From Neelides folsomi (Eukaryota; Arthropoda; Collembola; Neelipleona; Neelidae), in contig JAQGBZ010000268.1 in NCBI GenBank assembly GCA_034687125.1, positions 1 through 64,000 of the forward strand: a DNA stretch of 64,000 nt, in the 5' to 3' direction. A program made the position numbers and the translations under genes. Positions within the stretch are counted from its first letter, which is position 1, and each line of letters begins with the position of its first letter. Below the pieces are notes generated by a model. That model did not search any database. It saw only the letters and a program-made list of their open reading frames with translations, and had not been told where the DNA came from. Positions 27,549-63,876 of this stretch are shown in pieces.

Positions 27549-30500
27549 TCAATGTTTCGGACTTTCTTTGTATGGTTGGAAGAGAGTTGTGGCCGGCGGT
27601 GAGTGGCGGGTATGTGGAGACGGGGTATTTTTGCCTCCCGGGCTCAACCTCTCTGGATCCACACATTGAATGCAATTCTCGCTTGAGGAGTTTGAGGACG
27701 GGGAAGACGTGAGGGGAATTCGAGTTGTTGTAACATGAGACATCTCGTCCGGGTTGTCCCGGAGGTAAGGCGGGTACATGGGCCGAGAGCCTGTAGAGGA
27801 GGAACTCACAAGACCATAGGGATGATGACTGGGAGAATGGAATCCGGGGCGGATGGGACCTCCATGTCCCTGCGGAACTCCTTGCGGGTAGGGATTTCTC
27901 GGAGGCATGCCAGGACCCATGGTTGGATGCGGGTAGTAGGCTGCTTGATAGAGAGATGCTGGATTGTAAGGATAGTTGGTGGCCGAGGCAGCGGCCGCAT
28001 GGAGGATGTAGGCAGCTAAAGCAGGGTCAGCATATGGCCAGGCCAAGGCAAGTCGTTGGCGCTTGTCTTTCATCCTCCGGTTTTGAAACCAAACCTGGAA
28101 TTAAAAAACTTTGTTGATTGAGTTTGCTAAATATAATAACTTAGTTCCTTGAATGATCATTTTCCCAATACTTTTAGTTTAAGATTATGTAATTATTCTC
28201 GTGAGGAATAATGGAAAGTTTGTAAGTAAGTTGATAAATACATGTTTAACACGACGGCCTGGAGATAAAGTAAATTGAACATGTGTAAGTGTAAGAATTG
28301 TAAAAAGCATTATGCGTCGCTTTTGAAGGTGTCAAAAGAAGATGAAGAGGGAGGGTCTGAGGGCCGCCGTGGAGGAAGAGGATGTGTGCAAAGGAGGACA
28401 TCCCAAGTCTTAATTAAATTTTAACGTGTTTTTTCATTCGTCAAAGGAGAATTCCACCGAGATTTTAGCAGCTCAATTATCGAGCGATGATAAGGCGAGA
28501 AGTGAGCAAAGGTTCTCGGATTTCATTCCCTGATTTTACGAGCCCCCTCTTAACACCATTATCCCTTTACTCTCAAATTGTTTCTCTGGCCCGAGCCGCC
28601 TGTGAGTTTCTCGCTCTCTCAGCTCCTTCGGCTGATGATGAAAATCTTAATGTTTAATGTCTCCTCATTAGACTTCCTTAGCGAGGCCATTATCGCTCTC
28701 CATTATGCCTCCTGTTTAGATGAGACTCGGAGTCTCTGCATATTTGATAAGATGAGGCGCTATGATTACGCGCCTTCGACAAACCCCAACCATTGGAAGG
28801 AAAAGAAACACTCATCTACCTTGATCGTTGACTCGGGGAGATTGAGCTGAGCGGCCAATTCGCACCTCCGAGGTCGAGAGACGTAATTTTCTTTGAAGAA
28901 CTCCTTCTCCAGCCGCCCCAATTGCTCTCTCGTGAACGCTGTCCGATAACGACGAATCCCCTCGTTCACCGACCCATTCCCTCCTGGTGACTTCTCCGAA
29001 TCTATGAACAAAACGTTCATTGTTAGTTATTTAAGCTAATGAATATAATATTTTTTCTATCTATACTAATAAGTTCAAAATGAGGCTTCTTTATTAGACA
29101 ATTTTGGGATTCCGGCTAAGAGGGAAATGATAGGAAAATAATTGGACCTCTAATCCTTCCTTTTGTTACTTTTTTTAAATCCTTTTCTAATTATTCCCAG
29201 AATCGCTCATAAGACAAAACGATTGTCAGCAAGATGTTGATGAATGGAATGAAAAGCCATATGTGGGTGTAATTTTAGTGCCTATTTAGCCAAAAGGAGA
29301 AAAACCCTTGTCCCATGAGCCTATGGAGAGCTATGTAGTGATTGTATTAGGACTTATTGGTAATCATCGTCGGTGGAAGAGTTTTGACCCTTCCTAATCC
29401 TCTAAAACTTAATCCCTAAAGGCTTTATGTTTGTGTATATTTGGTTATGGGAGGAGTGGTGTTGGGTTGAAATAAGTGTTTGCTTTCGGTTTTCTCGGAA
29501 TCAAAAGAGAACCCCAGGGTGTGGAGGGTTTCAGAAGCCAACTAACTTTTAAGCCCCGCGAGTCAACTTCACAGAGAATTTGACGACTCCTGATGAGGGT
29601 TTTAGCGGTTTATATTTGGGGCTGGGAATACCTGGGATATCCACTTCCTCATGATATCAATTAGTATCTCCCAACGGCCGCAACTATGTAATAAGCGAAT
29701 TGAGAGATGTGGGGCGGCTGGTGACTTATTTATAGCCGTCAAGGGATGAGCTTTATGGCCAAAGTCAAATACTTTGTTGAAAGAGAACAAAAGGATGGGC
29801 CTGGATTTTGGAGTGGAGATGTGGGTGGGCTTTGATCCGAAGCGGGGGTGTCCTCCGCGAATGAGGACGGTGGAGACATTGAGGAATGGGAGCCTTTGTC
29901 ACCCCGCGTGTTCCTTCCCTTTGTCCCTTCCTCCGATGGTCGGAGAGAATAGCAGGCATGTGCCCTTTGACAGAGAAGCCCTTTCTATTGTGACAACTAG
30001 CTGACACTTATACGATACTCACCTGAGCTCTCTTCATCCCACCTATACGACCAAATTCTTTTCTCCCTCCACAACCAACATTTCTCTCTTCACAGATGTA
30101 CTCTTATGTCCCAACCACAAGGAATTTCCTATTATGATGATCAACCCCTATTAGCCACTATGTCATTCAAACCATTCCCAATTCAAGTCTTTCATATTTC
30201 ACTCATCAATCAAGTATTAAGTTGAAAGAAATAGCAGAAATTGACAAACTATTAAACTATCAAAACATTAAGGACATTATCTAAAGTCCCAATAGTGGAA
30301 AGGACACCTATTTTACTAATCTAGTTTATACAATTTAATAAAATATTATAAGAAACCCCAAATCGGCGTTCTTTCAATATTTCATCAGATGAGAAACAAA
30401 ATATACTCGTATTATAAATACAGAGTGTTGTAATGAAATGAAATGAAGCAATAAGTACAGAATAAATCTATTTCTTATAAAATGAGCCGTTTTAAAATAC

Positions 30501-36052: not shown

Positions 36053-37275
36053 TTGGTGCAAAAAAGGTTGAGCGTTTTATTCAATTAGATCGAATTACCC
36101 AATTAAATCATTAATAAATGGTATGAGATCCTTGAACCTCCCTAAGTTGTCCAACTCTTTGAGTCATTGAATTAATCAGCGTTTGAAGCGTCCCAAGAGG
36201 AATATTTTCCCACGCTTTCATGATTGACCTTTTGAGATCGAGATCGGAATAATATTGTTGTCCCTGTCCATAAACAGCGTGGGATAAGATTGCCCATAAA
36301 TTCTCCATGGGATTCATGTCCGGGCTGTAAGGTGGCCAACGCATAAGACGCTCATCAGCGATTCCTTGTAGAGCTAACCAAGCTCTTGTTGGGCGGAACA
36401 CGTGGCAAGGATGGTTATCCTGAGCCAGAATCCAGTTATCTCCAGCAATTTCCTCAGCGCAATTCATCAAATATCGTTCAAGATTGTTAATATACTCTTC
36501 CGAGTTCATTCCCGATGAAACAAAAGTGAGGTCGGTCTTACCATTAAAGGCGAATCCAGCGAAGACCATCATCGTTTCTCCACAGTGAGTTCGTCTTACT
36601 CCCGTCACTTTGGGTTTCCTTGAATCAGCCCAAATATTCTTATATTCAGTTGGTCCAACACGGGTAAACTTTTTCTCATCCACAAACACTGTGTTTTGCC
36701 AGCGTTCGCCCATATTTGTCATTTCTCTGGTCCATGTCAACCTTTGCTGCTTGTGTCGTTCTGTGAGCGGAGATTTGAGTTCCATTTTTCGTCTATTAAT
36801 GTGTGGGCAGTTTTTCAAAACTCTCCGTATGGTCCAGCGGCTTTGTTCAAGTCCGAGAGAATCCTTAATTTGGTTACAAGACAAGGATGTGTTACTCGCT
36901 GTGCGGAGAATGTTCCTTTTCACACGCGGCGAAACGCTGTTTCTTTTCCTAACCGCATAATTCTTCCTCAACTTGAGAAATTTTGAAACCGTATTTCTCG
37001 AAATTCCCAGTCGTTTAGCAATTGCCACTTTTTTCCATCCGATATTGATTAGTTTAGCTATTTCGGCTCGTTCGCTAACTGTCAGGGATTTCCCTCTCAC
37101 CATTTCTATAAAGATGATAAAACAGTGTTAATGAACACTATTATTATTAAATAATTTATTTAATAGTAAAATATTATAAATTCATTATAAAATAAGAATT
37201 AAATTTAATTATTTTACCTGCATTAATTAGTGAAAACACCGGCTTTAGTAAAATGCTCAACTTTTTTTGCACCAA
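36053..37275 (-). mobile_element. Complete mariner/Tc1-superfamily element (DD37E type)
   Basis: Terminal inverted repeats of 27 bases flank an intact transposase: left 36053-36079 (TTGGTGCAAAAAAGG...), right 37249-37275, 25 of 27 matching. The total is ~1.22 kb, normal for the superfamily. The left end has a TA three to five bases outside the repeat, but a clean TA duplication is not visible on the right. The exact ends may therefore be a few bases off. The element lies between even-skipped and the aldehyde dehydrogenase gene. Confidence 0.85.
36111..37103 (-). CDS. Mariner/Tc1-type transposase, DD37E, 330 aa
   Basis: A single open frame starts at the ATG at 37103 and ends 32 bases inside the left terminal repeat. 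Residues ~1-110 form a paired-type helix-turn-helix region, with AKRLGISRNTVSKFL as the first recognition helix. The RNase-H-like domain carries the acidic triad: D in FVDEKKF, D in LAQDNHPCH, and E in PDMNPMENLW. There are 37 residues between the second D and the E, so this is DD37E rather than Tc1 DD34E or mariner DD34D. DD37E elements (ITmD37E) were first described in mosquitoes. No stop or frameshift is present, so the copy may be recent or active. It cuts and pastes the flanking element. Confidence 0.9.
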   Translation of the reverse strand: MVRGKSLTVSERAEIAKLINIGWKKVAIAKRLGISRNTVSKFLKLRKNYAVRKRNSVSPRVKRNILRTASNTSLSCNQIKDSLGLEQSRWTIRRVLKNCPHINRRKMELKSPLTERHKQQRLTWTREMTNMGERWQNTVFVDEKKFTRVGPTEYKNIWADSRKPKVTGVRRTHCGETMMVFAGFAFNGKTDLTFVSSGMNSEEYINNLERYLMNCAEEIAGDNWILAQDNHPCHVFRPTRAWLALQGIADERLMRWPPYSPDMNPMENLWAILSHAVYGQGQQYYSDLDLKRSIMKAWENIPLGTLQTLINSMTQRVGQLREVQGSHTIY

Positions 37276-49657: not shown

Positions 49658-52600
49658 TTAAAACAGTGAACCATAATGACTTTTTCGGCTTCGAGCATTC
49701 CTTTTATGTTGATGTTTATTGATAAAATCAACATTTTTACTCGATTTGTTTGAGTATTTCTTTTTCTTTTTGTGTTTTTCTTCTACATCCATCTGTTTAT
49801 TCTTTTTCTCAGTATTCAAATTTTCCCTGTTCTGTCGTTCTTGTTCTCTTTGACGGCGATAGAGTGGCAAGTCCACATCATAGATATCCTTCTTTGGTCG
49901 ATAAGGAAGGAAAATAGTTCTTGAGTAATCAATAGAAGAATATTTGGATAAAATGTTGATCTGACAAAACATTTCAAATTCATCGTAATGCTCAAGCAAA
50001 TCTTTCAGCTCGTTCTGGTTCAACATGAGGACTTCAACAAATGTCTCGGCCCGGAATGTTCTTGAATAAGGTTTGTCGTAGAAGAAAATTGAGCCGTAGC
50101 CGAAAGAGTCGCCGGGTTTCAACATCTTCTTGTGAAGCATCACTCCATCGACCATTGTGTAGCTGCAGATGTTTCCTTTGTACACAATGTACAGATTACT
50201 TCCCACTTCCCCATGGTTCACAATGTTCACCCCGGGAAAGTAAATTTCATGACGGAGTTTTCCAGCAAGGTTCCGATAAAATGATTTATCTTCAGTTCCT
50301 TTGAACAATTTGACCTAACAAAAAATGTCAATCACTACCTATATTTGTTATGATTTAAAATAATCTACTAAAGTAGTGATTTAATAGTAAGTAATTAACC
50401 TTTTCAATTGTTGATCCAAATAACGCATGACGAACGGATATTTGAATCACGCGGGGAAGACATAGGAAAACCTGTTGATATTTTTTCCCTCTACTTTTTT
50501 TCCAAAAGTATATGAACCAAAATAAAACAAGTTCGTGACTTTTTCTGGAAACGCCGATATTTTGGAGATGAATCTTGAATAATAAAATATATAGTACTGG
50601 TCAGTTTACAAATTCCTGGCACACCGCGCCATAACATTTAAAAAGAAACAGCATTTTGGAATATTGAATTTCTAAATTACTCCAAGGATTTTTAAAACGT
50701 TTAATATAAATCAAACGTACAAAATTCTGCTCCTATTTTAAAAGAGTTGGCGCGGTGTGCCAGGAATTTATAAACTTGCCAGTAAGTAAAAATGAAATAA
50801 TTATTGGTATTAAACAAAAATTACAATGCTTCTAATATAATTACAATTAACTGTTCCACTTGATAAAAGTATTCATTGTAGTATTTAGACAAAGAAGCAA
50901 ATCCAGAGACGAAATCCGACAGAATAATGGAGAGGATAAAAGCACCAAAGAAGATACAAACAATTGTTAATGCCATTTCACGTGTATTTACAGCATTCTG
51001 AATATAATGAAGATTTTCATAAAATGATATAAATGAAATGTGTTAGCACGAAATAAATCTTATTTCAAATCATAATTTAGCATATAGGTAATTTTGATAA
51101 AAATTAGAAAATAATTTAGTTTAAAATATCATTTACAATTTCTCCAAAACCAGTTGTGCTTATGGTTGTAATAACCCAATAGATTGCTCGAATATAAAAT
51201 CTCCAATAAAACATAAGTTCTCCATCCTTTTTGACACGATCTATATTTCCCATTCTCCCTATTTAAAATGATCAGGAAAACATTAAAATAAACATTTAAT
51301 TAATGTGGTTGATTGATTAAAAAACCTCACAACAATTTCACAATGATTATCATATTTATTAAATAAAAATATTTAAAAACATACACTCGTGAGTCCATGT
51401 ATCGTTAAGACATAAAATTTCTTCAGTGACATTTTCTATTTTTTTCCTTTTACAAGGAGCAATAATGAAATAGGAACAGGCAAGGATGTGAGCCAAGAGA
51501 AAAAACGTGGTAATAGAAATTGTAAATTTTGATCGAAAGTTTGAAATATGAATGTCGTCTTTCTTTGAGAGTTTATCATTATAAAATCTCGCCTATAGAA
51601 TATTTTTGGCATAAATTATATTATGCAACATAAGATTAGGTTAGGTTAATATTTTGTACAAGAGGATTTACATAATTGATAAAAAATTTCAATACCTAAG
51701 CTATGTAGAGTACATTTTGTAATTAACTCACCAATCGTAAAAATTTTAGTAAGAGAAAATATTTCACATGTGATTCAGCAATATTCCCAATTAAATTATT
51801 CAGTGCAATAAATTGTATTGGAATAATGGCCAAAAAGTCAAGAATAAAATAGGAGGTCAAGTATCTGTAATTACATATAATTCGATCCTTAATTTAGAAA
51901 TAGAGTAGTAGACATTTTAATATATAAATAAGTAATTACATTGATTAAAGTAATGAATTATTTTACTAACCTGATCACAATTTTTCTAAAATTCTTGCAA
52001 TATTCGCCATCGGGTGTTTGATAAGCAGTTATAAATTGTAAAAGTAAATGGAGAAGAATAATAATTTCAAGAGAATTTGAAAAATAAGGAAAATTCTTTG
52101 AAAAGGGATTTTTATATCCTTGAAAATTAAAGTCGCGAGAAAAAGTGACTATAAAAAATGCAATTGCGGGAGTAAAAAGGCAAAGCCAGACAACGATTGA
52201 ATCCAGGATTTGATAAAAAGTACAATTCGGATGAAGAAGAATTGAAAATTTGCTCCATGTTTTCCTTTCGTCATCAACAAGAGTTTCCCTTCTAGATTCT
52301 TTTCGAACTTTTATTCCTTTCTTTCTGAAGAAATATCAAAATATTATAATATTTATTTAAGTAATAAATAGTAATAGCTTATGCAAATTTACATAGGGTA
52401 AATAAAATGTTATTATAAGACATAATAAGAATATCATTTACCTGCATGCATAAGGATATAAATAATCTACCTAATATGTATTTGCAAATCAAAACTAAAT
52501 ATTACCTTTTCTTTGGTGGTTTTTTTCGAGCAAAATAAATGAATGGCAAGTTTTTGTCTTCGCTTCCAGTTCCAATAATATTTCTTAAAATCCAATTTCT

Positions 52601-52774
52601 GGACGATCCTGTCTTCTCTTGTGATGTTCTCAAAGATTCAATGTCTTTATCGTCCAATTCATCTTCGATATTGTCACTTCTACAATCAATGTAATGTCGA
52701 AGGCATTCTGTTCGTTTAATATTGTCAATGATTTTTGCCTCGTGATCTTCAAGAGAATAATTATTTTCTTGGTG
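49658..52774 (-). other. CNGK: CNGK repeat IV (TTGFGE pore + CNBD IV + basic tail)
   Basis: Exons 29-36: 52506-52774, 51971-52324, 51732-51864, 51385-51592, 51137-51258, 50845-50997, 50400-50573, 49658-50314. Exon 29 is a charged linker. S1-S2 lie in exon 30, S3-S4 in exon 31, S5 in exon 32. The pore in exon 33 reads WVITTISTTGFGEI, with Glu in place of the filter Asp. S6 is in exon 34. The C-linker in exon 35 includes LFWFIYFWKKSRG. The CNBD reads VNIVNHGEVGSNLYIVYKG, and the FGE position is FGY. The Arg position is Tyr, although SRTFRAE follows two residues later. The last ~70 residues are Lys/Arg/Asn-rich (KHKKKKKYSNKSSK), probably cytosolic. Confidence 0.8.
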
Positions 52775-55700
52775 CTGTAAATTTTCAGTTTAAAATTATC
52801 CCATGAACAAAATAAACAATTTAATCATAGATCTTTACTATATGATAATACTAGTTAAGTAACTTAATAATAAATTAACAAAGTATTAAATTGTAAATCA
52901 TTAAAGCATTATATCTTTTTCATGGAGAATTTTCCTTTGGAAAAGATCATTGCCCTTATCATCCAACTTGACTAGGAGATTTTTCTTGATGATTGGAAAA
53001 CGTTCAAGAAGCGTGTCAAGGCTCTTTTTAGTTAAAAGTAAAAGTTCCACATTTGTAGATGCAATGGCATTGAACCCTCTTGGTTTTCCGGATATCAAAG
53101 TTGCTTCACCAAATGATCTAGAAAATGAAAAGTTAAGAGTTAAAATCTAAATACCAAACCATTAATACTAGGTATTATGCTATTGATTTTTAGCTCTGAA
53201 TTTTTAAGATGCAAATTCAATTACTCTTTTCTCTTTAAGTTCACGACAAACTTAAGTTTTGAATCCATAATTGCAACGACTCCTCTAGAAATCACATACA
53301 TTTCTCCCATTATATCCCCATACCGGCAAATCCTTTCACCTCTCACAAAATGAAGTTTAATGAGCAAATAATTCAAAGTCCGTAGGATGTTATAAGAGAA
53401 TTCTTTGAAAAGAGGAACCTGAAATAAAATTGATAATCAATGAATGATAATGATTTGATTTTATTATGAAGTGCATAAGATACATTATATCAGTAGCCGC
53501 TTTTTGATTGGTAAGAATAAATATGTATTACTTGACTTAAAATATCCCCTCTAATCGCTTTGTAAATTTCATTTTCAAGATTCGAATTCACTTCAGCAAA
53601 GAGTTCTGATGGTAATAAACCTTTCGTTTCTTCCCACTCATTTGTCAAATAATCGTCAACTTGTCTAAACATTTTTATTGCACTTTTTAAAAAGGACTCA
53701 CATACCATTGTTGAGGTTGGTAGTATAAAATTAATATATAGAATACTATTTAGCTTACGTTCTGATCTTATAGCTAACATTTTCAGATTTCAGAATGAGT
53801 TTCAATGTTGTGTAATTCTCAACAAATCTTGCTCGAATTTCATCCGTGTCAACTTCAGCAGCCTTTAAAAATTTGATACAATAAAAAAGTATGATAAATT
53901 ATAACTATTTATACCTAAATGAACTATTTAATATTTAGATAAAATTTTTACTAACAGTTAAGTCAGCGATAATTAATCGGGTTATGATGAGTCCTAATAA
54001 ATAATATAAAAATATAAGTCAAGTAATTTTATGTATGGAATATAAAATTGCCACTTGATCAAATGAAATACATATAAAGAGACTAAAAGATCTTACCGAA
54101 GACCATCATGAAGAATACTAAAACAATTTCTGTAGGGCCAAGGAAAAACATATCCCCAAATCCACTAAAAAAACGAATTTCGATTTTAAATTTCATAGTC
54201 GATACATATAGGCTAATTTATAATAATTTAAGTAATTGCATTAAAATACCTCACAAGGATGACTTGACTTGCATAATAATTTCCAGCAATCCAACGTTCA
54301 CCATATCCTTTCAGCTCATTTACATCATCTAAAAAGTTTAATATTTGATTAAAATGTTCAATCAATCAATCAAATTACTTATTGTACATAGGTACATTTA
54401 GTTCCAATCCATGAATTTGCTAAACAATAAGGAAGAAGCTGATCATCTCCAGCAGACCATTCAAAAGATGAAAAAGGACATGCATAATACATTGCAATAG
54501 CGGCCATGAAGGAACAAAGGACAACAGTCAAAGAAGCGTAGAGGCAAAGTCTAAGAAATAATATTTTAATTATAGGAAATTCAAAAATATTACAATTTTT
54601 CAAAATTACAAAATCATGCTTCTTGCAACAAATATATTGTGAATGATTCTAAACATGGTTGGAGTCCTTAAAATCAAAACAAGTCTGGTCCATTTGAGTT
54701 TTGTATGCCAATATGTTCCGCGCCCATCACCAGTAAGATTTGTATATCCAGTGAGGAATAGAGATATTTCAGAATAAAAAATAATGAGAATTTCAAAGAA
54801 GAAAACTCCTTCAAACATGTAATGAATTGCAGTTTTCACCGGATGAGAAATTTTTACTCCATCGGCTGTGTAATAAGCCCAATGAAACTTAAGGAATCTA
54901 AATTTGAATAAAATAAAATTATTGATTCAATATATTATATAAAGATAAAAAATAATAGTAATAAGTTAAATAAGTTTTTTTAATTACATGTCCATCATGA
55001 GGAAAACGTCTAAAATGAGCTGAACAACTTGAAAGGAGAAAAATCGAATGTTGTTGAAAGTTTCCATAAAAATGAGTAACAGGATAAGGATGCTCACACA
55101 ACTCATTACACAACTCCAAAGAGAGGCAAAATCTCCATCCGGATTAATTGACATGTTGAATAGGAAATATCTAATAGTAGAAATATTAATTAGAACGTGT
55201 TAATATTCATTAAGTCTTACTTAAATATTCTTGTCCATTTTGGCGCTTTATTCCAATCATCTGTAAATTCTTTGAATGAATATCTCATGATTGATTGATT
55301 CTTGTCTTTGGGGAAAAATTCAAAACTATCTATAACTCCAGAAGGAGGCCATCCTCCACGGGACGTTTTATCTTGATTTTTTGAGAGTTTTCTTTTTTCA
55401 GCGTAATCTTGGATTTTATGTTCAATCTTATCGGCAATCCGATCCTTAATAACAACATTATAAATTAAGACTAATATATACAGATATTTAAATCATTAAT
55501 ATAAAAAATTATCTCGCATAATAATATATAATTAATAATTTTAATTCCATTGACTTAAAATATTTCATTACACGTTCCTTTCTGACAATGTCTTCGAAGA
55601 TATCAAGATCCATTTCAAATTGAATCACATCATTAAAATCGTCAAAGTCAACAATGAAGAAAATGCAATGTGAAAGCGTTCGGACGAAACAAGGACTTGG

Positions 55701-58700
55701 CTCTCCAAATAGCAAATCACGAGATCCAAAGTGAGCATATTTCTCTAAAACTGATTTCCTCGTTTTCATATCTTTTCTCAGAAGCTTGAAAAATTAAAAT
55801 AATTTGGATAAATAAAATGTGTGGTAAATAATTTTATTAATAAATTAATACCTCAACGGATCCTTGAACAATGATGTACATTTGTCGAGCGACATCCCCC
55901 CTTTTCACCACAATCACTCCAGGTGATAACAAATACCGTTTTAAATGTTTCCCCAATCGGATTACTAATTTCGGATCCATTTTCTAATTATTAGATTCAG
56001 AAGATGAAAAGGGTGTTGAATTAATAAAATGTATTTGCCTACTAATCTCATTAAAATAAATTATTAGCAATATTACTGAAATAATTGGAACTCCGTCAAA
56101 AATTTTCCAAAATTCCGTATGAAGAGCATCTTCTTGGAAAACAGGCGGAGCATCAAACATTAAATGAGTTGTTCCTCTTGGTAAAGTCACATTTTTCCTT
56201 ATCTGAGCTTGAAGATGAAAAAATTCAATGACTTCGAATCTTAGAAGACGCGGCAAACCAGCAAACTTCATAAACTGTTTAATCTTTACTAATCGCTGTT
56301 GAAGTTCCAGCCTGAAAGTACAATTAAGTATTTGCCATGTATCATATCTATATAAATCAATTTAATGATAGATAATTAGGTAAGAAGTTTACTTATAATA
56401 AAGCTTACTTTTGTCGAACTTTGCAAGCTAAAGCTGAAGTGAGAATTGAAGTCACATATCCCATGTAAAAAAATACAATTAATTGTAAAACAATATTGAC
56501 AGTCATTTCAACATGACTTTGAGGGTGGAAATCTCCGAAACCAGTACTTGAAAGCGTTGCAGTTGCATAATGAATTGATATCAAATATGGCATGTTTTTT
56601 ATAAGAGTTTGCACAGAATAATACAATTGCCAATAAAGAGCGGTTTGAACCACATCGTGGTCTTTTACAAAGTTAACCTCATAAGTTCTAAGCCATATGT
56701 CTCGGTGGCATTCATGCTTGTAAAAAAGTTTTCTATAACAAATAAAAATTAAAACATCGTGTGTATGAATTCAAGAATGAAATAATTTCAAAATACAGGT
56801 ATATCATTGTATAACATATTATATAAATAATAGAATATAACATTAATTAATTACCCGTCATTAACAAGTGGGCAGGCCAATTGGAATAATAAGCAAGCAA
56901 CAACATGAATCACGATTAAGAAAAATAACATTGTTTGCATTAGCCTTATAACAATGAGATGATGTGGAGCAGTGTTTTCCATGTACACAAAATATCTAAA
57001 AAGCTTTAAAAAATTTTTGTTTATTATCGGATTCTAAAAGCAAAGAAATTATTTGACATTTCTGGTCGGGGTAACCATGTTGGGACAAAAAACGGGCACA
57101 TGGGCTCTTGGGCCCGAAGTAGGTAAATGTGCCCACATAAGGGCGCATTGAACCCAAACAAGATTAAACTGTTTTAACTAATAATTAAATTTAAACGTGG
57201 CATTTTCTATGTTTCGACCATTTTGGTCTTACAAATTGAGGGAAATTACAAAAGGACTTGATTAGTTGTAAGCCACACCACCTTTGGTATACTCTATTTC
57301 AACCAACGTGTATTCAGATGAGCAAGGTTAGCTTAGGCTAGATAAGTGATATTGTTCAAGCTTATTGTTAATATTAAATGAATTTTAATGCTTTTTTCGA
57401 TATTTTTAATGTGCCCTTATATGGGCCCTTTCTTGGCTCATTTTACCATTTTTCAAGGCACATGTGCCCGTTATAGGGTTCAATGTGCCCATTTTGGGTT
57501 TGTGTGCCCGATTTCTAACATGTGCCCCCTTATGTGGCACATTTTTAGGGTCCAATATGCCCTTTTTGGGGTTCAATGTGCCATATTTATGGCACATGTG
57601 CCTCTTTTTGGGTTCAATGTGCCCGTTTTTGGGCACATGTGCCCGGTTTTTGTCCCAACATGGTTACCCCAACCGACATTTCTTTATATCAATCATACTT
57701 TCCAGGTTTTAATTCCCCTCATGAAAATAGGAATCATTAAATAAGGACTTTTGGTTCGATAAGCAATGAAATAATCAAAAGGAATGATTGGGAGAATGTC
57801 AAGCCAAAACATAGCCCGAGAAGTAACAATCTTTATACCATCCCGAAATTTGAAGTAAATTCCTAATACAGAAAAGATAATGTAGAATAATATTTAGTTA
57901 AAAGAAGTTTTATACATTTAAATAAAATTTACCGGTAAGGGGAAGTGTTGCATAGATTTCGACAAGTAGATCAATTGCGTAGATAATGTAGATAATGTTA
58001 ATTATGAGAGGGGATCTTTTGAAATCAAAATACAGACATGTGTAGTATAGATATCCATGATGATTTGTATTGAAAGCGAGACAGTAAGGTTCAAGTACAA
58101 ATAAAAATACTGAAATGAGGATAATCACCCGAGTCCAATAATACACAAAAGCATCTTGTGTTGCACAAATAGGAGGCATTTGGCAATTCACATAAGCCAA
58201 TGAATGTTGCTGGAATTTAAATTTTGAAACATTGTCATAAAATAAATATACAACTCTTTTAACAATGAAAATAATGAGATAATACAAAGTACTTATTCTC
58301 TAAATAAAGTTAAGGGTTATGGAATTACCTTTCGAATATTTGGAATTTTACATGGCATTTCAATGATTCCAACTTCCTTAAAATCCAACAGGACATCAGT
58401 TGAAGCGAGAGGATTGCTGAACGTTCTATTCCTATTTTGATAAATATTTGTTTGTTTACAATTCAAAAGGATAAAATGATATGATTCAAAAGGATTCAAT
58501 TACACATCTATAGATAAATTTGGAATGTTAAAATAGGGAATTTACCATCTCATTTCCATAAAAAATCTAAATGACTTGAACATGGCTTGTTGAATTTGAG
58601 TAGTTGGTTCTTTTGCTTGAACCCAAAATATCGGATCTTTTCCAACCATCTCATAATAATCATACATTCCTTCCTTTCTCATCTAAATCAACAAATAAAT

Positions 58701-61700
58701 GAAAAAATAACACCATTAGACAAATGCATGTAACTTTAATATATTTAAATGTAATATAATAGTAGTAGAAAAATATAATACATTTTGTTTATACGACTAA
58801 TAAAAGTTGTTTCTTACATTCACACGATAGCGGAATTGTTCAAGAACAGAAGGAAACGATCGGAAAACATTTAAGAAATCTTCTTTTTTAATCCTTAAAA
58901 ATTGACAAGCAAGCTGAGTTTCAATATTAGTTGAATAAGGAATCGAGAACAAAAGATTTGTTTCTCCAAAAATGCATCCAGGACGAAGAATTGCCGCTAT
59001 TTTGTTTTTGTTAAACTTGGACCTCACAGCAACTTCACCTTGAATGAGATAAAACATTTGATCCGCGTAGTCTCCTTCTTGACACAATCTGTTAAGTGTA
59101 GTATAACTCTTTAGTACACAAAACAAAAAACAATTGAATAATTACATACTACCTGTATGTAATACTAAAGTACAACTAAAGTAGTATAATCAATTATTAA
59201 ATGTATGTATGTAATTCAATAACATAAATGATTTGGTTTACATGAAATCTTTTCCAAGAAGAATGACATCAGAAATTTGAGCCACTGCTCGAAGAAAAGT
59301 TTCTTCGAGCCCACGAAACAAAGGCGCCACTTCAAACATTTCGAGACAAATATCATACTTGATATCTTCAAGAATCGACTTGGGTAAATTCGAGATAATC
59401 TGAACTTCGTATACTCCTTGTCGATAATTCCATAAAAAGCGATAGTATTGGGCAACTTTCAATCGGAAAATGTTAATTGCTCCGATCTCTTGCTAAATAG
59501 AAAAAAATAATTATGGCATTTTCAATATATTTCGTTTTATTCCATTTCATATAAAATGTTTAATACCAAATGTTCGTTAATGGCGTCAACTCTATGGTAA
59601 AGATCGTGACGTATAACATCATATTGAAGAATAAAGTTAGTTAAATTAGATGAAAAATATCCCGATAGATAAATGGCTCCAACCAACATAGCCAAACTTG
59701 CGAAAACCATTTCGCCTTCGGTGACTGGAGTCATATCTCCATACCTAAATTAATTAAAAAATATATGATAATATAAAAATTGATATTCTTTATAATAAAT
59801 GTATTGAATATATAAAATATAATTATATTTAATATGGGTTTAGTTTTAGTTAGATCGATTGATAAAATTAATATTGTTTATAAAATAATATTTGCAATGA
59901 AAGGCATTTCGTTACCCAACAGTTGTTATTGTTGTAGTTGAATAGCTATAATTTATAAAGAAAACATATTTATGATAAAACTATTATATTGACTCGAATA
60001 TAAGAGAAATGTCGAAAGATTAAAGTTAAAAAAATATTCTTAGAATATTACTATAATGCAAGGACATAAACTGATGAAGATTCTTGAGGATAATGTGGAA
60101 ATTCACCAGCAGCGTGATAAAGCCAAGAGTCTCTAATATGCTTCATATGTTGTTGAAGCATTATATGATTGGGAGTCTGAAACAAAAGAGAAACAATTCA
60201 TTTTATTAAGACAATAATAATGTAAAAGAATAAAAAATTTATATTTATAAGATGAAAGAATAAGAAAACACAAGTTTACCAGAAATGTAAGACAAATGCA
60301 GATACATGCATACACATGAACAAAAGTCATATAAATTATAGAAAAACTGAGAAGAAAAATTAGCTGACGATTCCCTTTCCGCTCTGTATTAAGATGTTCT
60401 GAAAATAATAAATTAAGGTTTATTTTGATTAATTATTTTTTTAATATTGAGAATATAATACATAGATATGAAAAGATACAATAATCTCGAAAGATTACCA
60501 AAAAAGAGTGCGACTCGATAAAGAATGAATGGCTTGTTAATTAAATTGACGTAATTTGCAATTGATTCATTTTCAAATAACTTTTCAGTTAATATTAACC
60601 GGACGATGGCATCCAGCGGAATTAAAACGAAAACATCAAGGAAAAATTGATTAATTGGGTAATGTAACCAAAATATCAAATAATCGGCTTTGGTGAAATG
60701 TCTCCAGTACTCAACACATAATCGAAAAAATATGTCGACAATATAAAGAATAATTGCAACAAGGCATGCAATTGAAAAAACGCGATTTAAATAATTTGAA
60801 AAAAATGCTTGATAAGTGATTAAAAAGATAATGGTTATGCTCAGAATGACGCTGAGAAATTCAAACAAAACTGCAATCTTATGAAAGACATGAACTTGTG
60901 TTGATACGACGTTGGGAGCAATATGATATTTTGGAACTTTCTTCATAATTGCCTTTCTTTTCCTGGCTACATTGAACATTAAATCTGGGTCTTCGCCTTC
61001 TTGGTTTCTAAAAACAAAATCACCCTCGGTGAATACAGGAAGTAATTCACCTGATGACGTTGAGTGTTCAGATAATTGCTCATCTTCTTTCATCACTAAA
61101 TTTTTAATTAAATTGTTAGAATATTTTATCAAGCTCCTTTGAGATATAAAGATTCAATGGCATCATCATGTAGTCAAACCTTCCATTATCTTAAGCTCAA
61201 CAAGATCAATGGGTGCTGAATCTTCTTCTGTTTGAGTGGTCGTTTCGTTCTCCGTTTCTTCGGGAGTAGTACTCATAACTGAAGGATCGGTTTCTATTTC
61301 TATTCCAAGATCTGCCATGATCCCTCGATTTTTTCCAACATGAGCAGGAACGTTGGTGTAAAGTCTTGTAGCCGATTCATTAACTGGAAAGGAAAATGAA
61401 TCATTTCTTCCGAAGTCAATGTCGTATCCTTCGTCATCCGTCTCCATGTCAGGATTCTCAGTCATAAAAAGAGTCTCAAGCTTGTTAGATTTGGTGTTCT
61501 TAAATAGATCGACTATAAAAGGCTTTTTAATAATGTTCGACTTTTGATTCTTGGGTTCATTTGGAGGTTTTGTCAACTTTGGTGCCGTATTTGTTTTCTT
61601 CATCGAACTTTTTGGCGGAACGACGAAACTAACAGCTTTTGATTTGGACTTCGGATCTCCAGGATGACTTTTGTTAACAAAGTGACTCGGTACTGATAAA

Positions 61701-61942
61701 TTAGTTTCCCCCTTTGGATCATTTGAAGGTTGAGAAGTCTCGGCTTTTTTCTTTGACGTGCTTGGAGACGGTTTGGAAGACTTTGGACTAAATGCGACAG
61801 ATTTATTTGGAGATTTGGTCAAAGATTCCTCTTCGACCTTTTCCTTCGTTTTCTTCTTATTTTGAACTTTGTCTTTCTCAGGGGGCTTTTTCTTTTCCTT
61901 TGTTTCTTCTTTCTTGAGAGGAGACACTTGAGCCTTCTTCAT
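49658..61942 (-). CDS. CNGK: CNGK-type pseudotetrameric cyclic-nucleotide-gated K+ channel, ~2582 aa
   Basis: The model has 36 exons joined in phase throughout, with one weak junction after exon 28. Order: a Lys/Ser/Pro-rich N-terminus (exon 1, 61180-61942, residues 1-254), then four consecutive units each with six membrane segments, re-entrant pore, C-linker and cyclic-nucleotide-binding domain, then a Lys/Arg-rich tail. Filters are TVGYGD (~542-547), STGFGD (~1117-1122), VSGFGD (~1665-1670) and TTGFGE (~2249-2254). The four-in-one CNG layout with GYG/GFG filters is that of CNGK (tetraKCNG) channels of sea urchin and fish sperm, K+-selective and opened by cGMP. Sea urchin CNGK is somewhat shorter, mainly at the N-terminus. 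Exon coordinates are given per repeat in the following entries. Likely a plasma-membrane, possibly ciliary or sperm, hyperpolarising channel. It is head-to-head with the receptor gene at 62737. Confidence 0.85.
50597..50782. mobile_element. 186 bp MITE with TA target duplication (Tc1/mariner type)
   Basis: The left end CTGGTCAGTTTACAAATTCC and right end (reverse complement CTGGCAAGTTTATAAATTCC) form terminal inverted repeats of ~38 bases. They extend through TGGCACACCGCGCCA. TA lies directly outside both ends (50595-50596 and 50783-50784), the insertion signature of Tc1/mariner transposases. It is inside intron 34 of the CNGK gene. Its terminal sequence differs from the DD37E element at 36053, so that transposase probably did not mobilise it. 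Confidence 0.8.
52973..55170 (-). other. CNGK: CNGK repeat III (VSGFGD pore + intact CNBD III)
   Basis: Exons 19-28: 54988-55170, 54610-54897, 54396-54550, 54250-54328, 54097-54164, 53956-53993, 53759-53862, 53532-53664, 53225-53418, 52973-53117. S4 is RLVLILRTPTMFRIIHNIF. The pore is YYASQVILV/SGFGDMF, with the intron again splitting the filter codon region. S6 is followed by a C-linker with DEIRARFVENYTTLK. CNBD III has RICRYGDIMGEMYVISRGVV, SFGEATL (Glu ~1849) and GKPRGFN, where R (~1858) aligns with the phosphate-binding Arg. It is the only repeat with both residues. Exon 21 uses donor gtacct and exon 24 uses gttagt; both are needed for the frame. Confidence 0.8.
55221..58431 (-). other. 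CNGK: CNGK repeat II (STGFGD pore + degenerate CNBD II)
   Basis: Exons 10-18: 58329-58431, 57933-58209, 57699-57862, 56855-57003, 56409-56732, 56077-56311, 55852-55983, 55572-55784, 55221-55444. S1-S2 lie in exon 11, S3-S4 in exon 12, S5 in exon 13, pore and S6 in exon 14. The pore reads HYATATLSSTGFGDF. The CNBD keeps the strand block VIVVKRGDVARQMYIIVQGSVE. After FGE it is shortened to PSPCFVRTLSHC with no Arg at the phosphate-binding site. Cyclic nucleotide binding is therefore unlikely. Intron 12 contains the 611 bp transposable element described separately, only ~15 bases from the splice donor. Confidence 0.8.
57064..57674. mobile_element. 611 bp non-autonomous DNA transposon with 9-bp target duplication
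   Basis: Flanked by a perfect 9-base direct repeat, GACATTTCT, at 57055-57063 and 57675-57683. The ends are inverted: GGTCGGGGTAACCATGTTGG on the left and GGTTGGGGTAACCATGTTGG as the reverse complement of the right. The match continues through GACAAAAA-CGGGCACATG. The right half contains imperfect tandem copies of a ~26-29 base unit built on GGTTCAATGTGCCC. A 9-base duplication fits Mutator-like (MULE) or Merlin-type elements. No transposase is encoded; the open frames through it simply translate the tandem repeat. It lies in CNGK intron 12. Confidence 0.85.
58546..61095 (-). other. CNGK: CNGK repeat I (TVGYGD pore + CNBD I)
   Basis: Exons 2-9: 60499-61095, 60280-60398, 60052-60176, 59916-59945, 59567-59744, 59242-59492, 58818-59088, 58546-58682. 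Exon 5 is only 30 bases and encodes YSTTTITTVG, so an intron splits the selectivity filter between G and YGD. The filter TVGYGD equals that of classical K+ channels. The C-linker (LKVAQYYRFLWNYRQGVYE...) precedes a CNBD with FGETNLL. Where other CNBDs have the phosphate-binding Arg (RRTA), this one reads IPYSTNIE, with Tyr at the Arg position, so nucleotide binding is probably lost or weak. Confidence 0.8.
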
Positions 61943-62736
61943 TTCAAGATACTTTTACAAGGATTTCCACGAATTTACTGATATCAAAACATCAATTCAA
62001 ACTTTATGTTTTTATTGATAAATTATAATTTGAGAAACGATTTTCAATTTGTGACAAAATTCAATTGTTTCCTGAACAACAGTCTAAACCCTGCGTCTAG
62101 AGAATTATCGGATCTTTCCCCCTGTGAAAATATTTAGGAAGCTGGTGGTATTTTAAACTGAGGAAAGATGGTGGTAAAAATTGTTCATTAATGCCCCAAA
62201 TAATTCTGGTTCGGTTGTCGAGTCAAAGTCGATGACCGAAGATAAGTCGAATCGTGTTTAAAAAATGTCCAATGTATCACAAAAATTATGAATTACATAT
62301 TAACCTATACATGTACTAATATGCGTATGCAAAATGAAAAATGTATTGTTATATAATTGTTCGCAAAAATGTTCCTAACTGGATATTAAAAATATAAGCA
62401 TTATTTAATCTTTATCGCTCTCATCACTCGTTCTTCGTAACTCCATAATGGAATTAAATTAAATTTTCGAACTCATTGTTTGCTTTGAGTTTCAAGCCTC
62501 CACTTAAGAAATTAAATAAATTAAAAATTAATAACTTTCTTTATAATTGCATATTACATATTTGTTAAGAATAAACATTAGCGAATGGTTAAGCTTTGAA
62601 GATCATTTCTTATGGCGTACATCAGAATCCATAAAAGGAATATTTTATTTCAATTTTTGGCCCATTTTTAATGTTCGTTGGGTAATTTTAAGACTTCAAA
62701 AATTAAAGGCCGTTCTTGTTAATAAATTAATGTATA
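61943..62736. promoter_or_regulatory. Head-to-head intergenic region (CNGK / receptor gene)
   Basis: The ~800 bases between the divergent starts of the CNGK gene (minus) and the receptor gene (plus) must contain both promoters. It also contains the second copy of the dispersed repeat. I could not place a TATA box or initiator with confidence. Confidence 0.4.
62112..62215 (+). repeat. Dispersed repeat, copy 2 (5' side of CNGK gene)
   Basis: This copy matches 49250-49350 in the same orientation, sharing CCCCCTG, GAAAATATTTAGGAA, AAAGATGG and TTCATTAATG. It lies ~170 bases upstream of the CNGK start codon. See copy 1. Confidence 0.55.
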
Positions 62737-63876
62737 ATGGGTTGTTTAAGAATTACTCTTATTTCGGCATGCAGACCATTTCTGTTAATAGCAAAAATTA
62801 TTGGAGTTTTTCCCGTCCCAATATTTCACATATTGAGAGGGACTTTAACCAAAAAATCAGTTTCTTATCTCTCAGTTGCCTTTTTTTATTCAATATTTCT
62901 TATGCTTTTCAACGAACTACTTTCTCTCGACATCAAAATTTCAACAGTGCAATTGATAACATGCAGTACTGGAGAATTTTCATTAGGACCCACAGAATTT
63001 CTTTCACTTGGAATCGTCGCTTCTTGCCTCTTTATAATTAAAACTGTGACTATTCCCATTTTCACCATTTTAATTCCAATACGGATATGCAAATTTTTAC
63101 ATTTGATTCAAATTCTTGACACATCATTTAAAGTCCCTGTTTATTCAAATATATTCACGATTAAAAATTTAGTCAATTTAATTTCTTTTTTATTTGCACT
63201 TACAACGGATATAGTAGGAATGGCTAATTTCGCTGAAAAAACACTTTTGAATCATATTTATTTGGAAAATAAAGGAGTCAGCACTTATAAACTATTTGGT
63301 TTTAGGATATTTCAAAGCAAAGATATTTTACTTTATATCCTTCAATTTGGACTTCTAATTGGTAATTTAGCTCTATTTATTCTTATTTTTCTTCTTTGCA
63401 TGTTTTCCCAAGGAATAACTCAAAGAGTTAAAGTTGTTCAAGGACAATTTAAAATTTATTGTAAAAACATCAAGAGCAAAATCAATCCTTTAAATCCTAG
63501 AATTCAAATTCTTTCAAATAATGTGAAAACTTTCTCGACAAATCAAATGTTTTTTATTGAACAAAATACTTTAGAAGTCGTCATTGATTGTTATGAGAAA
63601 TTGAGAGATTTGCACAGCAAGTTAAATTCAATTTTTAGTATGTTTCTCTTCTTCTTCATTTCCACTACTGTTCTTTTTGTTATCAATGCTATTTTCTTCA
63701 TTGTGAGCACTCTTGGCGTGGGGGCTTTCTATGCAATTTTTCATCCCGTTCAATCTATGTTAAATGGCAATTCTGAGGTAATTGCAATTCTCTCTGCAAC
63801 ATTTGTGGTGTTCTTGAGACTTTTTACTGTTATTGAATGTGGTGAGGAAATGGAGCAAGCGGTAATCCATATTTAA
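62737..63876 (+). CDS. Gustatory-receptor-like 7TM chemoreceptor (3' end outside window)
   Basis: A single long exon starts at the ATG at 62737 and reads 379 codons before a stop, but the true coding exon probably ends at the donor after EMEQA (GCG then gtaatc, ~63861). The N-terminal block RPFLLIAKIIGVFPVPIF matches the opening of arthropod gustatory receptors. About six hydrophobic membrane segments follow, with a cytosolic loop around YEKLRDLHSKLN before TM6. This loop pattern and its position are typical of the Gr family. The conserved last membrane segment and TYxxxxxQ motif are missing, so the last exon(s) must lie mostly beyond 64000. A candidate 21-base exon at ~63933-63953 (LDGLFKN) is possible but unproven. 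It is divergent from the CNGK gene. Ligand unknown. Confidence 0.6.
   Translation: MGCLRITLISACRPFLLIAKIIGVFPVPIFHILRGTLTKKSVSYLSVAFFYSIFLMLFNELLSLDIKISTVQLITCSTGEFSLGPTEFLSLGIVASCLFIIKTVTIPIFTILIPIRICKFLHLIQILDTSFKVPVYSNIFTIKNLVNLISFLFALTTDIVGMANFAEKTLLNHIYLENKGVSTYKLFGFRIFQSKDILLYILQFGLLIGNLALFILIFLLCMFSQGITQRVKVVQGQFKIYCKNIKSKINPLNPRIQILSNNVKTFSTNQMFFIEQNTLEVVIDCYEKLRDLHSKLNSIFSMFLFFFISTTVLFVINAIFFIVSTLGVGAFYAIFHPVQSMLNGNSEVIAILSATFVVFLRLFTVIECGEEMEQAVIHI

Follow-up and report, generated by a model that had tools for sequence, protein, structure and literature searches.

Does an arthropod genome carry a potassium channel of the CNGK family, in which four channel units are linked in a single polypeptide? 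This question is raised by a gene on the minus strand of the 64,000-nucleotide stretch of Neelides folsomi DNA analysed here (the window: positions 1-64000 of contig C268, within a genome set of 75.1 Mb in 840 contigs). The gene extends from an ATG at 61942 to a stop codon ending at 49658, which agrees with the coordinates and strand of the original prediction, and we estimate at roughly 0.85 the probability that it encodes a four-repeat K+ channel of the CNGK type, each repeat comprising six transmembrane segments (6TM), a pore, a C-linker and a cyclic-nucleotide-binding domain (CNBD). The family itself is already known; an arthropod member is unusual for its host, and here it is present twice. 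The hosts named in the available sections of PMC4749565 are a choanoflagellate, a sponge, a sea anemone and deuterostomes up to fish, with no arthropod among them, and the open-access literature searched (for arthropod, insect, crustacean and mite), as far as its available sections go, yielded no arthropod CNGK/tetraKCNG, while predicted database entries may exist.

Architecture of the window gene and of its paralogue

The exons of the window gene were assembled by hand from reading frames and join into one open frame of 2602 codons. With stops making up 8.1% of codons in the intronic DNA, chance alone would yield such a frame with a probability near 10^-95, a rough figure given that the exons were picked for openness. 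GC content is 0.351 in the exons versus 0.228 in the introns, which range from 50 to 695 nt. The introns had been described as phase-compatible, and this stands for the phases as well as for the borders (GT at the start of 34/35, AG at the end of 35/35), intron 28 being the one without a convincing donor. Each of the four units has a Pfam CNBD match that exceeds the cut-off, and this result and the single frame bear out the proposed succession of four 6TM-pore-C-linker-CNBD units on one strand. Ion_trans_2 is matched in repeats I, II and IV and Ion_trans in repeat IV, and the CNBD is the only match of repeat III. The selectivity filters read TVGYGD, STGFGD, VSGFGD and TTGFGE from I to IV, and a K+-type GYG or GFG filter is found in 4/4 repeats of this gene and in 4/4 of the second gene described below. 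Four G[YF]G[DE] motifs were seen in 0/1000 shuffles of the window protein; a fifth match to the motif, GYGE at residue 1647, is no filter. Hydropathy yields 22 transmembrane-like segments for the window gene and 21 for the second gene, counts that include some segments from beyond the membrane part and pass over most of the S4 helices; that at residues 2361-2379 of the window protein falls within a C-linker and is a false call. The S4 segments of the window gene, which were picked by eye, are uneven: the longest unbroken series of basic residues spaced three positions apart has four members in repeat II, three in IV, two in III and a single one in I.

Other CNBD channels share the basic unit and differ in how it is used. 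The KCNH (EAG/hERG), HCN and CNG channels have the same 6TM-C-linker-CNBD unit, but carry one per chain, and CNGA1 has a GET filter instead of GYG; the window gene displays neither the single unit nor the GET-type filter that mark CNG channels (CNGA/CNGB). The N-terminal domain of HCN channels, Ion_trans_N, has no match in its four units, and the sole match of the genome search is on C152. Among solved structures, the bacterial CNG K+ channel SthK matches repeats I and IV (the two searched) best, but has a single unit per chain and needs four chains per pore.

A second four-repeat gene of the CNGK type, the strongest support for the present reading, is predicted on C103 (Table 1). The CNBD search of the genome listed 21 matches and is insensitive, recovering 2 of the 4 CNBDs in the window gene and a single one on C103. 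A tblastn comparison of the window protein with C103:141500-151500 recovered the units in collinear order, from the pore of repeat I through the CNBD of repeat IV, and the part upstream of the repeat I pore was supplied by further C103 sequence in the spliced alignment. The CNBDs of its repeats were identified by alignment, and its model includes four tiny, doubtful exons (22, 34, 2 and 12 nt). The two proteins are identical at 746/2132 aligned residues (35.0%). As many as 22 of the 35 window introns are matched, within two columns and in phase, by one of the 33 introns of the second gene, 21 of them exactly, whereas 2000 random placements gave 0.9 matches on average and 7 at most; the model of the second gene was guided by the window gene, which tilts this agreement upwards to some extent. 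Judging from their sequences, the genome holds at least two four-repeat CNGK-type genes, which are old paralogues. Exons of a CNBD channel, with an unusual pore-like motif (SYGD), also occur at C300:70200-75200; they appear to form a single unit and, as a candidate third CNGK, gave just two weak matches to single repeats.

In a tree of the pore-to-CNBD stretches of the eight repeats and four references (hERG, HCN1, CNGA1 and SthK), repeats of the same number pair across the two genes, with support of 100/99 for I+I and 100/100 for each of II+II, III+III and IV+IV. Grouping of the repeats with EAG/HCN or ordinary CNG channels had been named beforehand as grounds for abandoning the CNGK assignment. 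No repeat nests with any of the four references, so far in favour of the assignment; the backbone of the tree is weak, however, and the repeat III pair falls on the side of the references. Differently numbered repeats are 19-25% identical versus 35-44% for namesakes, and the fourfold duplication is thus far older than the duplication of the gene. CNGK repeats have been reported to pair I-III and II-IV (PMC7576140, available in part); this pairing is absent from the eight-repeat tree, which neither supports nor rejects it.

Ligand sites, gating and cellular setting

The Glu and the Thr of the phosphate-binding cassette contact the ligand. When the cassettes were aligned to those of SthK, HCN1 and CNGA1, Glu and Arg were both retained, as in these three channels, only in CNBD III, and this in both genes. 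CNBD I has kept the Glu and lost the Arg, and CNBD II and IV have retained neither, the Arg column of CNBD IV hinging on the placement of a one-residue gap. The ligand-contacting Arg is missing from 3/4 CNBDs of the window gene. It is also missing from the aligned hERG, reported as not gated by cyclic nucleotides in the accessible portion of PMC4749565, where the Arg is described as crucial.

A single cGMP at the third repeat reportedly opens the sea-urchin CNGK (PMC3481119, PMC4749565), and the same partial sources describe in ApCNGK and Sp-tetraKCNG a plan like the present one, with four 6TM-CNBD repeats per chain, GYG/GFG filters, a Thr before GFG in some repeats and a ligand that acts at the third repeat only, the counterpart here being CNBD III as the only one with Glu and Arg. 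By contrast, the present host is an arthropod, there are two paralogues and CNBD III lacks the canonical Thr, the comparison being made by description. Marine CNGKs are reported to carry a Thr before GYG/GFG. In the sea urchin it is reported in three of the four pores (PMC4749565, in part); here it directly precedes GFG in repeats II and IV of the window gene and only in IV of the second gene, the residues at this place in repeats I-IV being V/T/S/T and V/A/I/T, respectively. The zebrafish channel, DrCNGK, shares the four-repeat plan and the loss of the ligand-contacting Arg from at least one CNBD, but lacks the pore Thr that the window gene has in II and IV, and is reported as gated by pH and not by cyclic nucleotides (PMC4749565, in part).

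Whether the predicted channel would be gated through CNBD III seems to us evenly balanced. The channel itself is read as one polypeptide whose four linked 6TM-CNBD units together build a complete K+ pore. With gating through CNBD III, binding of one ligand there would open this pore and hyperpolarise the cell, and the other three CNBDs would serve as structural remnants, in line with reports on the sea-urchin channel. That this animal possesses a cGMP-to-hyperpolarisation pathway, as had been suggested, is something that we infer only. Regarding the host, 39 matches to Chitin_bind_4, a cuticle-protein family typical of arthropods, were found in the genome and confirm an arthropod. There are also 17 tektin matches on five contigs (C358, C224, C96, C72 and C12), which make axonemes and flagellated sperm plausible, and 35 cyclase-domain matches on nine contigs. 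The tektins speak against a mite with aflagellate sperm, the type found in acariform mites. The CatSper family PF15149 gave no match, in a search in which the controls gave none either. The likeliest site of action would be sperm, because the animal has axonemal tektins and the CNGKs studied are sperm channels, and by this analogy a role in sperm is slightly favoured. More speculatively, and on balance doubtfully, the lineage may have kept two ancient CNGKs pared down to one working CNBD (III), with a single ligand gating a self-contained K+ pore, and the paralogues, which differ in the residues before the filter, may serve different cells or sperm stages, perhaps in the absence of the Na+/H+ exchanger that sea-urchin sperm use. 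If the two old arthropod paralogues are real, the CNGK family persisted in ecdysozoans, and the common pattern of CNBD loss in both genes constitutes a natural test of whether one CNBD suffices to gate a four-unit channel.

Alternative readings of the locus

A number of observations weigh against the reading of the window gene as an intact four-repeat CNGK, and they are gathered here with the explanations they might favour. At intron 28, between repeats III and IV, the best-fitting site is GAT|ATAATG, which is not a GT donor, and a frame continued past exon 28 runs into a stop at 52901. An alternative donor, CTA|GTCAAG at 52972, provides a GT-AG reading that drops 20 residues; the length of about 2582 residues first given for the protein holds with this donor, and becomes 2602 at the other junction. 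This alternative scores -2.6, lower than any of the 34 remaining donors, which lie between -1.0 and 9.6 (leave-one-out), and its score is equalled or exceeded by 401/508 GTs of the gene region. Assembly error, polymorphism, an unusual donor and recent loss cannot be told apart as sources of this oddity. The absence of GT from the best-fitting donor and the stop at 52901 are what would be expected of a decaying or variant allele, in which loss of the intron 28 donor leads the mRNA into the stop and leaves a three-repeat protein, the second gene doing the work. We consider this unlikely, because all 36 exons are open, 34/35 introns have both GT and AG, one frame-keeping GT is present at intron 28 and an assembly error is equally possible. 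The same stop past repeat III, together with the weak donor, could separate two adjacent genes whose products, a three-repeat and a one-repeat channel, co-assemble. This appears most improbable, as exon 29 follows exon 28 in frame after a gap of just 138 nt, and no Met occurs among the first 323 residues past the junction, so that repeat IV would be unable to start a complete unit from its own exons. The claim that the gene has no internal start-type exon is upheld to this extent; elsewhere, an ATG stands at the start of exon 9, and several Met occur in the I-II linker. Moreover, the end of CNBD III, the linker to repeat IV and its NLPFIYFA motif share one open exon in the second gene (C103:148460-148867), which provides independent support for the fusion of III and IV.

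Membership in the CNGK family is proposed from the architecture, the filters and the CNBDs, the comparison having covered the eight repeats of this genome and the four references. Among the points that weigh against it, just two basic residues are present in the S4 of repeat I. In the tree, the branch that sets the references to one side has a support of no more than 63/55, and another, at 69/81, places the pair of third repeats with them; across so weak a branch, this position means that a single origin of the eight repeats is not established. In bit scores, each repeat reaches 165-216 with its namesake, 32-78 with other repeats and 40-113 with the references (SthK highest for all eight), and differently numbered repeats therefore resemble one another no more than they resemble the references. 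The composition of the comparison, the weak backbone and these scores leave room for descent from outside the family, by an independent fourfold duplication of another CNBD-channel unit in this lineage. Such an origin is quite improbable in our view, because the fourfold duplication far predates that of the gene and no repeat nests with any one reference. A further point against the main reading is that none of the four contigs with Na+/H+ exchanger matches, among them C242 and C22 (minus-strand matches) and C95, has a CNBD match, a weak negative in view of the sensitivity of the CNBD listing noted above. Gating is a separate matter. In CNBD III the place of the canonical Thr beside the Arg is taken by G in the window gene and by R in the second. 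The window gene could be a true CNGK gated by pH or another signal instead of cyclic nucleotides, for which the zebrafish channel is a precedent (PMC4749565, in part) and which would suit the loss of the Arg from 6/8 CNBDs of the two genes and of the Thr from CNBD III in both. This is a serious contender, rated somewhat short of even odds: CNBD III retains Glu and Arg in both paralogues while the other CNBDs have lost one or both, which suggests that a ligand contact has been kept.

Coordinates and other sequences

Table 1. Positions of the predicted channel genes and their parts (window numbering unless a contig is named).
Feature	Position	Strand	Remarks
Predicted four-repeat CNGK-type channel gene	49658..61942	-	36 exons, 2602 aa; 2582 aa with alternative intron 28 donor
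Exon 1, charged low-complexity N-terminus	61180..61942	-	254 aa
Repeat I, exons 2-8	58818..61095	-	6TM, pore TITTVGYGD, C-linker, CNBD I (Glu kept, Arg lost)
I-II linker, exons 9-10	58329..58682	-	
Repeat II, exons 11-17	55572..58209	-	Pore TLSSTGFGD, CNBD II (Glu and Arg lost)
II-III linker, exon 18	55221..55444	-	
Repeat III, exons 19-28	52913..55170	-	Pore VILVSGFGD, CNBD III (only CNBD with both Glu and Arg)
Intron 28	52775..52912	-	138 nt, 18% GC, 7 in-frame stops, best-fitting donor without GT; weak alternative donor at 52972
III-IV linker, exon 29	52506..52774	-	NLPFIYFA motif, also in linker of second gene
Repeat IV, exons 30-36	49658..52324	-	Pore TISTTGFGE, CNBD IV (Glu and Arg lost), basic tail
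Inverted-repeat element in intron 12	57064..57674	.	42-nt arms, 93% complementary; insertion, outside channel
Second predicted four-repeat CNGK-type gene	C103:140450-151346		2172 residues, 34 exons; spliced alignment, hand-trimmed from 50 exons

The element in intron 12 (57064-57674) resembles a miniature inverted-repeat transposable element, with internal repeats of GGGCACAT type. A second inverted-repeat element was recognised by eye in intron 34 (50599-50780), its 32-nt ends lying at 50749-50780 and 50599-50630. Elsewhere in the window, an open reading frame at 36111-37127 on the minus strand encodes a Tc1/Tc3-like transposase (DDE_3, Tc3 helix-turn-helix). On the plus strand, a 381-codon frame at 62731-63876 is multi-pass membrane-like and, by eye, gustatory-receptor-like, with no Pfam match; the insect odorant-receptor family has 3 weak matches in the genome. 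The frame at 27549-28100 on the minus strand appears to encode the end of an Even-skipped-like homeodomain (Pfam match below cut-off), with LFQPYK near the C-terminus. Finally, C742 is the mitochondrial contig (15157 bp), with a COX1 match and with ND2, COX1, COX2 and ATP6 in order by eye.

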